From positions 1 to 22,446 of the IMG/VR virus record IMGVR_UViG_3300020215_000144: a DNA stretch of 22,446 nucleotides; one strand, given 5' to 3'. Below are positions 11,824 to 22,367 of the stretch, piece after piece. Position 1 is the stretch's first letter. Every line of letters begins with the position of its first letter. The translations under genes and the position numbers were made by a program. The notes beneath the pieces were generated by a model. It was given only the letters and a program-made list of their open reading frames with translations. It did not search any database and was not told the DNA's origin. The stretch comes from a virus.

Positions 11824-12813
11824 ATGGCCAGCGTTCAAGAACTTCTACTCGCCGCGGAAACGAAAAAGAGCCCTTTCATCAAGCTATTGGAAGGCGCGGC
11901 GCAGGGTTTCGGGCAAGCGCAACAGGGCGGATTGGACCGGACAATCAAGATGATTCAACTCGATCAGATGCGACAGGAAATGGCGCAACAAGCGGAGATG
12001 CAAAAAGAGATTCAAATGCAACTGTCCGCACAGCAAGAAAGCGCGACGCAGCGCGGACTTAAATCGGTAGCGGGAGCGCCCGCGGCGGTCCTGCCCACCC
12101 AGAAGCTGAAGCAGAAAATATCTCAGGACGAGAAAGGACGATACTCGCGGTCCTTCGAGATGGTGGAGCCAAAAGAACCCGCTTCGCTTGATGCCATCGT
12201 CGCCGGGAAGGTGGATCGCGGTGAAATGACGCTTGAGCAAGCCTACGCCTTGAAAAATAGATCGGAGGGCATTTCGCCGAGTCTCAATTATCAAATGCAA
12301 AAGGACGCCGAGAAAAGGGTGACGGAAGAAAAAGGCCGAGTTATTCCCGGATATCAAAGCACAGGCGAAGTGGTTGTCGACGACACGGAGGCCAAAAATC
12401 TCCGCTCAGGCGTCGCGGAATTCGAGACGTTCAAATCAGGCATATCCGAGTACAAGAATCTCATAAAAAAATATGGGACGACGGAGCCGACAGACAGGCG
12501 GGCTCAGGGCCAGTTAAGTGCTTACGCAAAGAACCTTCAATTAAGGGTCAAAAATTTGGCTCAGCTCGGCGTTTTGTCGGCGTCGGACATTCCGTTTATC
12601 GAAGAACAGCTGCCGGGACCGGGCGTTTTCAGGACGAAAGAAGGAATGCTCGGTGCGCTCGATACCGCTGAGAAGCTGATGACGACCTCGATCAACAAGA
12701 AATTGAAAACAAGCGGATACGTCGCCACTGAGCAAACGCCTCCTCTTAATAACAGCGATCTATCGAGCATGACCGACGAAGAGTTAAAGCGAATCGCTAA
12801 CGGAGAACAATAA
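11824..12813 (+). CDS. Candidate DNA-ejection/internal virion protein 2
   Basis: 329 residues. I place the start at ATG 11824, just after the previous stop with GAGG upstream; an ATG at 11722 lies inside the preceding gene and is not needed. Residues 30-85 are Gln/Met-rich and strongly helical (MIQLDQMRQEMAQQAEMQKE), predicted coiled coil. A central soluble helical region follows, with a conserved-looking GQLSAYAKNLQLRVKNLAQL segment. The protein ends LSSMTDEELKRIANGEQ, a tail that recurs in phage internal proteins. No enzyme motif is seen. It overlaps the next start (TAATG). The ejection role is inferred from order and composition. Confidence 0.6.
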   Translation: MASVQELLLAAETKKSPFIKLLEGAAQGFGQAQQGGLDRTIKMIQLDQMRQEMAQQAEMQKEIQMQLSAQQESATQRGLKSVAGAPAAVLPTQKLKQKISQDEKGRYSRSFEMVEPKEPASLDAIVAGKVDRGEMTLEQAYALKNRSEGISPSLNYQMQKDAEKRVTEEKGRVIPGYQSTGEVVVDDTEAKNLRSGVAEFETFKSGISEYKNLIKKYGTTEPTDRRAQGQLSAYAKNLQLRVKNLAQLGVLSASDIPFIEEQLPGPGVFRTKEGMLGALDTAEKLMTTSINKKLKTSGYVATEQTPPLNNSDLSSMTDEELKRIANGEQ

Positions 12814-15898: not shown

Positions 15899-16594
15899 AT
15901 GGAACGAAAATGGGTGGTCGTGGCGTGCGGCGACATTCGCGGGTTCGGAGCTTGGACGTACCGGGCGGTGAACTCGCCGGAAGTGAAGGAGCCGTTCATT
16001 TCCCGGTTTTATCGGACGATGGAAAGCTACGTCCGGAGGCACACCGACTATCACTTTAAATATCTCGGGGACGGTTTCATGACGCTCCGAGAATTCACGG
16101 TGGAAGAGAGGCGAAATGGAGCGATTGCCAAATTCATCGGAACCCTTCTCAGAATTACAAACGGGGTCCGACAAGATATCGCCGAATGCGACTACCCATC
16201 CCCCGACGGGTTTCGAATCCGCTTCATGGATGGACACGCTTACAAGCTCATGGTTCTGGACCCGAACGATCCGGCACGAAAACGGACGATCCCGGAGTAC
16301 GTGGAATATCCACTCAATACGGCCCAACGCTTATTGGAGGTAAACCCTGATGAGATCTGTCTTGCAACGGAGGGGATTGTTAAGAGGCTTCGGCGACACC
16401 GATCCGTTTTTCGGGTGCGGCCACTTGGGAAACCGTCCTGTTATCCGAAAGGTGTCAATCGAGAGGATGTCGACGGCCTTTGGGTTCTGGAATCTTTTAG
16501 GAAGGCTTTTCAGCGGAAAACTTCGCATCGGGATAACGGTCCCCTTGGGGACGTTTTCCGAACGAAACAAAAAAGAAAAAAGGAGCGGCCATGA
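15899..16594 (+). CDS. Stand-alone class III nucleotidyl cyclase
   Basis: 231 residues; AGGAGA five bases before the ATG. The fold's landmarks appear in order: first metal Asp12 in GDIRGF (11-16); FISRFYRTMESYV helix; FKYLGDGFMTL (53-62) with Lys54 at the base-recognition position and second metal Asp58; FRIRFMDG strand; YPLNTAQRLLE with Asn140 and Arg144, the transition-state pair (N-x3-R); EICLATEGIVKRL; and the closing KGVN...GLWVLES. Lys54 is the adenylate-type residue; seven before Asn140 is Glu133 rather than the common Asp, so the base made is uncertain. There is no sensor or membrane domain; residues 205-231 are a basic tail. It lies within the lysis cassette, and its stop overlaps the next ATG. 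Close relatives in kind are bacterial cyclases, including the small Pycsar type. Confidence 0.8.
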   Translation: MERKWVVVACGDIRGFGAWTYRAVNSPEVKEPFISRFYRTMESYVRRHTDYHFKYLGDGFMTLREFTVEERRNGAIAKFIGTLLRITNGVRQDIAECDYPSPDGFRIRFMDGHAYKLMVLDPNDPARKRTIPEYVEYPLNTAQRLLEVNPDEICLATEGIVKRLRRHRSVFRVRPLGKPSCYPKGVNREDVDGLWVLESFRKAFQRKTSHRDNGPLGDVFRTKQKRKKERP

Positions 16595-17358: not shown

Positions 17359-17619
17359 CTACGGCATTATTACCGGGAGCCCCTTCCGTCGTTTCTTTAT
17401 CGGCGTGACGAGCTTCCTTTTTTGAATCACTTCTTCCTTACTAAACATGCGGAAATTTGGCGGCAAAATCTCAACCACCTTGATTAAGCCTTTCTTTACG
17501 TATTTGTCGAACGTCCTATTATCCACGCCCCAAATTTTCGCGGCCTCAGAGATGAAAATCTTGGTCAATGGTGTCTCCTGGTCGTACAGCCTACCTACCT
17601 CGTTCGCGATAACTAACAC
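17359..17619 (-). CDS. Small helix-turn-helix (MerR/excisionase-like) DNA-binding regulator
   Basis: 86 residues from a GTG with AAGGGAG about nine bases upstream. Residues 19-65 form a winged-helix-type reader (IFISEAAKIWGVDNRTFDKY with the turn at WGVDNR, then VKKGLIKVVEIL and FRMFSKEEVI), followed by a basic tail (KRKLVTPIKKRRKG). It could be a repressor, activator or excisionase. It faces away from the replication/recombination genes across a region with two overlapping opposed promoters, the classical place for a lysogeny/early-gene switch. The opposing 17652-17680 promoter would drive it, so autoregulation is plausible. Confidence 0.7.
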   Translation of the reverse strand: MLVIANEVGRLYDQETPLTKIFISEAAKIWGVDNRTFDKYVKKGLIKVVEILPPNFRMFSKEEVIQKRKLVTPIKKRRKGLPVIMP

Positions 17620-19744: not shown

Positions 19745-20707
19745 ATGTTTCCCATCGACAAAGATTCACCGATTCAGTTGGAGCTTTTTTCGACTGGACC
19801 GTTTACGCTGCGTTGGCCCATGCCGGACGCATTGGCCTTTTTCTGGGCAAACTATTGGTGTTTCCTACCGAAAGCAAAAACCTCGAAAAAGCCGATGGCC
19901 CGTCTCGTCCAATTTTTCGCGGGCCGGTACGCCGACGAGATTTCAAAAACCGACGTCGAAGCTCTGCGCCGGCACCTGGCCTCCCTTGGGCTCAAAGCCA
20001 ACACGATCAACACCCACCACGTTTTGCTGACGCGGTTTTTCAACAAGCTCGCGGAGTGGAAAGAGGGCGGTTCGTTCAATGGCCTGGATTTCTCAAAGAT
20101 AACCCTCCCTTTGAAAAATCCAGGTTCTTTGGTTCCCAAGGTGGACGAGCGTCAATTCGCGCGAAAGGTCGCGTGGCCTAAGCGCCTTGTTTACAAACTC
20201 ATAAATGTTGCGAACGTTTTGAATTTGCCTGAGGTCGCCGACGCGATTGAAATTCTTTACCTCTCGAAGCTCCGACCGGGCGACGTTTGGAATTTGAGCG
20301 AGCGGAACATTGATTTCGCGCACATGATCCTTTCGGGAATTCAGCACAAAACAATCACCTCGCGGATGCCTTCGGGAATTCCGTACATGATCGCGTTGAC
20401 GCCGCGAATGGCGACGATCCTAAAAAGACGGCTCGCGGAGGGGGAACCTTTGTTTTCCAAGAAGCGCGTCGAGGCGGGATTCAAAATCGTTCGGAAAGCG
20501 GCGGGCGCCCGATTGGTTCAGATTCGCGACTTTCGGCCTTCGTCCGCAACGCTTCTGCTCGACAATGGAATTGATCCCGAAACGGTAAGCGAGAGCCTGG
20601 GCCATACGACCCCGCGAATGCTGCCGACCTACGCGCCGCGCTCGATTGTGCATCAGCGGAAGGCTCAGGCGGTCCTGGAAAAGGAAGAGACCGAGATTCT
20701 TTATTGA
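19745..20707 (+). CDS. int: Tyrosine recombinase (phage integrase)
   Basis: 320 residues. The N-terminal half has a SAM-like core-binding domain (FFAGRYADEISKTDVEALRR, NTINTHHVLLTRFFNKLAEW). Catalytic residues: Arg177 in LYLSKLRPGD; Lys202; Arg264 in RDFRPSSATLLLDNG; His287 in SLGHTTP; nucleophile Tyr296 in LPTYA. The usual first His of the HxxR box is Arg261, a deviation seen in some members. It would integrate and excise the phage. The adjoining tRNA-Gly(GCC) 3' half at 20911-20956 is the expected attP target, and an alternate excisionase could be the small regulator at 17359-17619. The start follows a ribosome-binding site that may be held in a hairpin. Confidence 0.85.
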   Translation: MFPIDKDSPIQLELFSTGPFTLRWPMPDALAFFWANYWCFLPKAKTSKKPMARLVQFFAGRYADEISKTDVEALRRHLASLGLKANTINTHHVLLTRFFNKLAEWKEGGSFNGLDFSKITLPLKNPGSLVPKVDERQFARKVAWPKRLVYKLINVANVLNLPEVADAIEILYLSKLRPGDVWNLSERNIDFAHMILSGIQHKTITSRMPSGIPYMIALTPRMATILKRRLAEGEPLFSKKRVEAGFKIVRKAAGARLVQIRDFRPSSATLLLDNGIDPETVSESLGHTTPRMLPTYAPRSIVHQRKAQAVLEKEETEILY

Positions 20708-20837: not shown

Positions 20838-20896
20838 AATCAGTAGGCGCGGGCGATTTTATTCCAAGGCGGAGCGAGCCTATCCTTATTGTATAG
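20741..20896 (+). CDS. Possible 51-aa basic protein (leaderless)
   Basis: ATG 20741 to TAG 20894-20896 gives MRGTGSYKAEARHEH...SEPILIV, Arg/His-rich with one Cys. No ribosome-binding site precedes it, but the promoter at 20704 would start transcription within a base or two. Against it, a terminator-like hairpin with seven Ts lies inside the frame, and the ATG sits in a 15-bp inverted repeat. It may equally be a noncoding RNA. Confidence 0.3.
   Translation: MRGTGSYKAEARHEHRVGFFIPIKARAACFSHESVGAGDFIPRRSEPILIV
20766..20800 (+). terminator. Terminator-like hairpin with seven Ts
   Basis: CCGA-g-GCGA (20766-20774) pairs with TCGC-g-TCGG (20785-20793), ten-base loop, then seven Ts (20794-20800). 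It lies 59 bases after the integrase stop and could end that transcript, or a short RNA of about 60 bases from the 20704 promoter. It also lies in the 51-aa frame, where the Ts encode Phe-Phe. Confidence 0.5.
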
Positions 20897-20991
20897 GCGG
20901 GGAAGGCGTCCGACCTTGCCAAGGTCGAGACGAGGGTTCGATTCCCTTCACCCGCTTATTAATGTTCTTTTAATGGATAGGTTCGCTCCGC
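20869..20991. repeat. 17-bp inverted repeat flanking the tRNA-like core
   Basis: GCGGAGCGAGCCTATCC (20869-20885) and GGATAGGTTCGCTCCGC (20975-20991) are complementary apart from one G-T pair, and lie on either side of the tRNA-Gly 3' half. A further ATAGGC at 20893-20898 pairs with GCCTAT at 20878-20883. The recurring ATAGG element is a candidate integrase arm-type site. Confidence 0.6.
20911..20956 (+). other. 3' half of a tRNA-Gly(GCC) gene: probable attP core
   Basis: From 20911 the sequence folds as a tRNA anticodon arm (CGACC/GGTCG, loop TTGCCAA, anticodon GCC at 20918-20920), a four-base variable region, a T-arm (GAGGG, TTCGATT, CCCTT; 20932-20948), an acceptor 3' strand (CACCCGC; 20949-20955) and U as discriminator, as in bacterial tRNA-Gly. 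The upstream bases give no D-arm or matching acceptor strand in the right place. A half tRNA beside an integrase gene is the usual form of a phage attachment site, restoring the host tRNA after integration. Confidence 0.75.
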
Positions 20992-21033
20992 GAAAGCGAA
21001 GCGAACTTGAAGCAAGCACCTAACAAACATCTG

Positions 21034-21374: not shown

Positions 21375-21395
21375 ATTTTGTCCAGGTGGGATTTA

Positions 21396-22367
21396 ATGGC
21401 CTGGATAAAAGTCGATCCCATCGAAGTAAAGAAGCATCCGAAGTTTCACGCCTTCAAGAAAAAGCTCGGCTGGGAATCTCACCAAGCCTTCGGCTTTCTC
21501 GGCGCCTTATGGGGAGAAGTGGCCAATACCGAAGCGAACGAATCCGGCGACATAAGCGATTGGACGCCGGATTACCTTGCTGATCGGATTGGTGTCAGAC
21601 ATGACCCCGATAGCCTGTGGGAAGCGCTTGTGCCTGGTTACATCGAGGTCCGACCAAACGAACGGTTTTTTGTTCGGGACTGGTTGGAGCTCGCCGGGGA
21701 TTTTCTCCGAGAAAAATGGCGAGGTCGCAAAGGTGGACACGAACACCTCACCCAAATCTGGGCTAATTACGGCCGGATCTATGGGCGAAAACTGTCCTCC
21801 GAAAGCGATCCTACTGAGGATTCTCCGGGGCGCCCCGATACGCCCACTGATGATCAACAGAAAACCCACAGTGATTTCACTGTGGGTGAGAAAGACGCAA
21901 AAAACCGCACAATTCCCACCCCGGAAAAATTCCCCCCCGGTTATCCCGTCTTACCCCCCAGAGAGGACTTAAAGGCATCTATCCCCTTCGGGAGCGAAGA
22001 ATCGCCGCCGGATAAACCCGTTGCGGCTGTCTCGATTCTGCAAAGAGAATTCCTGGCCGGCTTAAAAGCCAGGTTGGAAGAAGACGGCGAGGCCCCGGTT
22101 GATTTTAATTACGGGAAAGCCGGCAGCGTCTTCAAGAAAATTCTCGATTGCGGCTACGGAGTCCAAGACATCGTCTCCCGTTTCGGGTCGTGGTTCAAAT
22201 CTACCGATCCGCATATCGTCAAACATTCGTACAGCGTCACGCTTCTTCCGCGTTACTTCAACACCCTCAAAGACGGACCAATCTCTAACCAGGGGCCCTC
22301 CAATGGAATCAAAACCTACCAAGATGGATACGCCACAGCCGGACGAGAACACGAAATTCCCTGTTAA
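21396..22367 (+). CDS. Phage replication initiator-like protein (lambda O/DnaD-type organisation)
   Basis: 323 residues. Start at ATG 21396 because AGGTGG lies five bases upstream; an earlier in-frame start at 21378 is less likely. An N-terminal winged-helix-like domain (about 1-125: KHPKFHAFKKKLGWESHQAFG, TPDYLADRIGV, WLELAGDFLREKWRGRKG) is followed by a low-complexity Pro/Asp/Lys linker (130-215) and a C-terminal helical domain (SILQREFLAGLKARLEEDGE, KILDCGYGVQDIVSRFGSWF, YSVTLLPRYFNTLKDG). This two-domain plan with a disordered linker fits phage initiators that bind an origin inside their own gene and recruit helicase loader through the C-terminus. Two palindromes lie in the linker-coding part. 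Confidence 0.65.
   Translation: MAWIKVDPIEVKKHPKFHAFKKKLGWESHQAFGFLGALWGEVANTEANESGDISDWTPDYLADRIGVRHDPDSLWEALVPGYIEVRPNERFFVRDWLELAGDFLREKWRGRKGGHEHLTQIWANYGRIYGRKLSSESDPTEDSPGRPDTPTDDQQKTHSDFTVGEKDAKNRTIPTPEKFPPGYPVLPPREDLKASIPFGSEESPPDKPVAAVSILQREFLAGLKARLEEDGEAPVDFNYGKAGSVFKKILDCGYGVQDIVSRFGSWFKSTDPHIVKHSYSVTLLPRYFNTLKDGPISNQGPSNGIKTYQDGYATAGREHEIPC
21826..21887. repeat. Two perfect palindromes in the linker-coding region (candidate origin)
   Basis: CGGGGCGCCCCG (21826-21837, perfect 12-bp palindrome) and ACCCACAGTGA-tt-TCACTGTGGGT (21864-21887, 11-bp arms). A-rich and C-rich runs follow at 21899-21960. Lambda-type initiators bind sites within their own gene at just this place. Confidence 0.5.

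Follow-up and report, generated by a model that had tools for sequence, protein, structure and literature searches.

A tRNA-Gly(GCC) 3'-half block beside a phage tyrosine integrase gene is a probable attP core and points to Elusimicrobiota as the most likely host phylum

The window, i.e., the whole stretch of DNA analyzed here, comprises an entire virus record of 22,446 bases, which is a linear fragment. Profile searches against Pfam and PHROGs identified genes for an SU10-type adaptor, a virion structural protein, an NlpC/P60 protein, a Sak4-like AAA protein, an ssDNA-binding-like protein, and a replication initiator. None of the window proteins tested matched a terminase or a major capsid protein, and thus the record is probably a fragment of a phage genome. 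The features discussed in this study are the following:

17359-17619, minus strand: gene of a small helix-turn-helix-like protein, possibly an excisionase or repressor
19745-20707, plus strand: tyrosine integrase gene, 320 aa
20869-20885: left arm of an inverted repeat, 17 nt, 94% complementary to 20975-20991
20911-20956, plus strand: probable attP core block, 3' half of tRNA-Gly(GCC)
20911-20915 and 20923-20927, plus strand: presumed core-type sites CGACC and GGTCG
20916-20922, plus strand: anticodon loop TTGCCAA, presumed 7-bp overlap region
20975-20991: right arm of the inverted repeat, pairing with 20869-20885
20998-21006, minus strand: third GTTCGYTCC-like motif with one mismatch, possibly an arm-type or accessory protein site
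21378-22367: replication initiation-like phage gene, to the right of the block

The integrase matches Pfam PF00589 and PHROG 1 and carries the catalytic residues R177, K202, R264, H287, and Y296. The usual histidine of box II is replaced by arginine, which also occupies this position in three integrase relatives from Elusimicrobiota; the integrase of the related phage L002, described below, has lysine there. Only about 25 residues precede the core-binding helices, such that the usual N-terminal arm-binding domain seems to be absent. No match to such a domain was obtained for the window integrase, whose AlphaFold model is poor and of low confidence outside residues 21-120. This apparent absence seems to count against an attP next to the gene, as the arms of a classical attP would require an arm-binding domain. 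The small protein encoded at 17359-17619 has no family match in Pfam or PHROGs, and its possible role is suggested by a weak HTH_17 match of the L002 protein in the corresponding position.

The block lies 203 bp downstream of the integrase gene and occurs once in the window. Its 46 bases read CGACC, TTGCCAA, GGTCG, AGAC, GAGGGTTCGATTCCCTT, CACCCGC, and T, and extend from the anticodon stem to the discriminator base of tRNA-Gly(GCC). They comprise the anticodon arm CGACC-TTGCCAA-GGTCG with the anticodon GCC, the variable loop AGAC, the T arm GAGGG-TTCGATT-CCCTT, and, at the 3' end, the acceptor 3' strand CACCCGC followed by the discriminator T. This anatomy confirms the initial annotation, which had assigned the block to the 3' half of this tRNA. 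A complete tRNA, which would have spoken against that assignment, was not predicted in the window by ARAGORN. The Rfam tRNA model scored 28.2 bits against 20897-20956, just below its gathering score of 29 bits because the D arm is absent; its match includes GCGGG at 20897, part of a 5' acceptor strand, which is able to pair with the acceptor 3' strand. A chance match is dismissed, since 45 of the 46 bases, together with the TA past the discriminator base, equal a genuine Elusimicrobia tRNA-Gly(GCC) gene.

A search of IMG/VR for exact copies of 39 bases of the block returned one other record, 3300020215_000880, a 43.8 kb contig referred to as L002. Its block, likewise single in its record, is identical to that of the window over these 39 bases and lies in the same place behind an integrase gene. 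The two integrases, both encoded upstream of the block, are 50% identical, the AAA_24/Sak4-like proteins share 56% identity, and the inverted repeat framing the block is paralleled as well. The two phages differ in the flanks of the block, which have diverged, and in its end: the block of L002 runs on into CCA, whereas that of the window does not. L002 was also the only record returned by integrase-seeded scans of IMG/VR. No relatives of the integrase were detected by tblastn among 50,697 phage records, and apart from L002 none of the relatives seeded by AAA_24 revealed a related integrase. The common 3' end is also present in the tRNA-Gly genes of phages L004 and L005; being whole genes located in tRNA clusters, these are unrelated to the window block.

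Some further observations were made in these phages. Both the window (15899-16594, plus strand) and L002 (5469-6107, minus strand) encode a cyclase-like protein of 212-231 aa with motifs resembling class III nucleotidyl cyclases (GDxxGF..., H.KYL.DGF). It has no match in Pfam, PHROGs, or NCBIfam; five PDB profile matches are weak (E 0.07-1), four of them being nucleotide cyclases, and its AlphaFold model is poor. The related phage contig L054 contains a tRNA-like gene with a long variable arm at 12223-12346, which is not called by ARAGORN. Low-complexity proteins are encoded in two relatives sharing AAA_24, one with runs of AGAAEAAGAAW (L059, 13938-14765) and one with repeated SVGD/SVWD-like units (L054, 12900-13070).

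In the window, the arms of the inverted repeat pair over 17 nt including one G-T pair. L002 has an equivalent inverted repeat of 14 nt around its block, where the arm sequences differ from those of the window and pairing is retained. Arm scores as high as these were reached at random places of the same sequences in 3 (window) and 15 (L002) of 800 draws each. Either figure is modest by itself but gains weight from the occurrence of both repeats around the same core. A GTTCGYTCC-like motif occurs once in each arm and once downstream, with the same order and orientations in both phages. Two of the three window copies carry one mismatch, the counterpart of the third motif in L002 lies at 522-530, and the left copy in L002, GGACGAACC, is recognizable by eye only. 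No enrichment of the motif is seen in the full window, and interest in it is due only to its placement around the core. The framing repeats may serve as arm sites, may be bound by an excisionase or repressor, or may form an RNA or DNA hairpin.

These repeats bear on the question whether the block is instead the attR (or attL) of an integrated prophage with host DNA on one side. The record is indeed a linear fragment, and the 3' half is present alone, as it is at an attR. However, the two sides of the repeat pair across the block and recur with another sequence in L002. This co-variation across the core in two phages implies that both flanks are phage DNA, as is expected for attP and not for attL or attR. 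With the replication initiation-like phage gene to the right of the block as additional evidence, this alternative is largely refuted and we regard it as very unlikely.

The same comparison is informative about a second alternative, namely a decayed phage tRNA gene or a part of a structured regulatory RNA unrelated to integration. Such an origin would account for the partial 5' acceptor strand, and the fold of the region is much more stable than those of shuffled sequences, with z scores of -6.8 in the window and -3.8 in L002. Yet 39 bases of the tRNA half are identical between the phages while the surrounding stems have diverged, a pattern consistent with a constraint from a host gene rather than from structure. 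As an attachment site is also indicated by the location downstream of an integrase gene and by other elements that use this site (see below), a decayed gene or regulatory RNA appears extremely improbable, and an attP core remains the preferred reading.

If the block is an attP core, its sequence should indicate the host, and the initial annotation had proposed that an exact match to the 46 bases would reveal the host directly. No such match exists in the genomes of 84,980 species. With one base free, the 39-mer was found in this set only in two Elusimicrobia and one member of the Actinomarinales. The tRNA-Gly(GCC) gene of Elusimicrobia RIFCSPLOWO2_01_FULL_60_11 is one of the two nearest, with 45 of 46 bases identical and the TA beyond the block also in common. 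At up to three mismatches, the 46-mer occurs in 35 of 341 Elusimicrobiota genomes, two of these at 45/46. Since the best match is 45/46, a likely phylum was obtained and the host species was not reached; the sequence matches point to the Elusimicrobiota as the most likely host group.

A host outside this phylum, e.g., from a lineage with no sequenced genome in the search set, was also considered. It would be consistent with the missing exact match and with the 39-mer carried with one difference by an Actinomarinales tRNA. Moreover, tRNA sequences are shared between lineages, and a short attachment-site match generally gives only a weak indication of the host (PMC5831537). On the other hand, the Actinomarinales tRNA differs from the block at two of 46 bases and is the only match among 396 Actinomycetota genomes, the other 395 being devoid of the sequence. 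Distant relatives of the integrase, by comparison, occur in three Elusimicrobiota genomes, twice beside tRNA-Arg(CCT) and once beside tRNA-Gly(CCC); at the same cut-off none were found in 198 Actinomycetota genomes, which is weak evidence. Together with the insertions at tRNA-Gly(GCC) described next, these relatives make a host from another phylum unlikely.

Six Elusimicrobiota genomes contain a whole tRNA-Gly(GCC) gene and, on the same strand, a displaced copy of its 3' half at a distance of 4.1, 4.4, 6.4, 7.9, 10.7, or 16.9 kb. The elements between the whole tRNA and the displaced half are located as follows:

L062, 5034-15764
L065, 1140-18074
L066, 1481-9492
L067, 140-6609
L068, 1165-5604
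L069, 1366-5495

Exact repeats of 41-49 nt are present in four of the six genomes and begin at CCTTGCCAAGG or TTGCCAAGG, in or adjoining the anticodon loop, while those of the 4.1 and 4.4 kb elements are broken by mismatches. Four of the six elements encode a tyrosine integrase similar to our queries between the tRNA copies. The other two, which showed no related integrase, are therefore weaker cases. The geometry of the 10.7 kb element (G080) is much like that of the window, its integrase gene ending about 120 bp before the displaced half. In two further genomes (G104 and G128), tandem whole tRNA-Gly copies were taken as gene duplications, not insertions. The L065 element carries apparent type I restriction-modification genes.

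tRNA-Gly(GCC) is thus an insertion hot spot that is repeatedly used in Elusimicrobiota, and prophages and islands can be searched for there directly. The earlier suggestion to look for prophages at this gene was borne out for other elements in these six genomes and not for the window phage, of which no lysogen was seen in the 341 Elusimicrobiota genomes.

The anatomy of the block, the second phage, and the insertions of other elements in six Elusimicrobiota genomes all support the attP next to the integrase gene that the initial annotation had proposed. The features of a tRNA-type attP are found here: an adjacent tyrosine recombinase, a partial tRNA only, phage DNA on both sides, and an identity block that agrees with Elusimicrobiota tRNA-Gly(GCC) genes at 45 of 46 bases. 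Hence, we hold with high confidence that the block represents the core of a temperate phage's attP and would recombine with the 3' half of a host tRNA-Gly(GCC) gene, the host most likely belonging to the Elusimicrobiota.

Where tyrosine recombinases target tRNA genes, the overlap region is often the anticodon loop, with the inverted core sites in the anticodon stem (PMC8371274). Accordingly placed, CGACC and GGTCG would be the core-type sites in the window. The integrase would recombine the block with the 3' half of the host gene (attB), and strand exchange would take place at the borders of the anticodon loop (TTGCCAA), judging from where the repeats of the integrated elements begin. Upon insertion, the 5' half of the host tRNA would be joined to the 3' half supplied by the phage, such that an intact gene is retained, and the original host 3' half would come to lie at the distal end of the prophage. 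In this scheme, we infer where the strands are cleaved, what the flanking repeats do, and that the window phage itself integrates. A more specific joint reading combines an Elusimicrobiota-specific phage group, a conserved palindrome around the tRNA core (arms of 14-17 bp plus the third GTTCGYTCC-like motif), and an integrase devoid of an arm-binding domain, where the repeat is bound by another protein or forms a hairpin that shapes or regulates integration. We consider this combination conceivable but rather doubtful.

A literature search revealed no dedicated account of Elusimicrobiota phages among the titles listed. For this uncultured temperate phage and one of its relatives, our analysis provides a likely host phylum, the little-studied Elusimicrobiota.

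In comparison with known systems, the site in the window largely corresponds to a classical tRNA attP as reviewed in PMC8371274: the tRNA 3' half lies beside the integrase gene, the block starts at the anticodon stem, and, as it reaches the tRNA 3' end, the host gene would be restored. In contrast to the classical case, a palindrome surrounds the core, and an arm-binding domain is seemingly missing from the integrase. The integrated elements of Elusimicrobiota, e.g., that of G080, share with the window the tRNA and the start of the repeat at the anticodon loop. Their integrases are 19-25% identical to that of the window and no other window gene is shared, so that kinship is limited to distant integrase similarity. 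What is new in this otherwise classical tRNA attP is the likely link to an Elusimicrobiota host.
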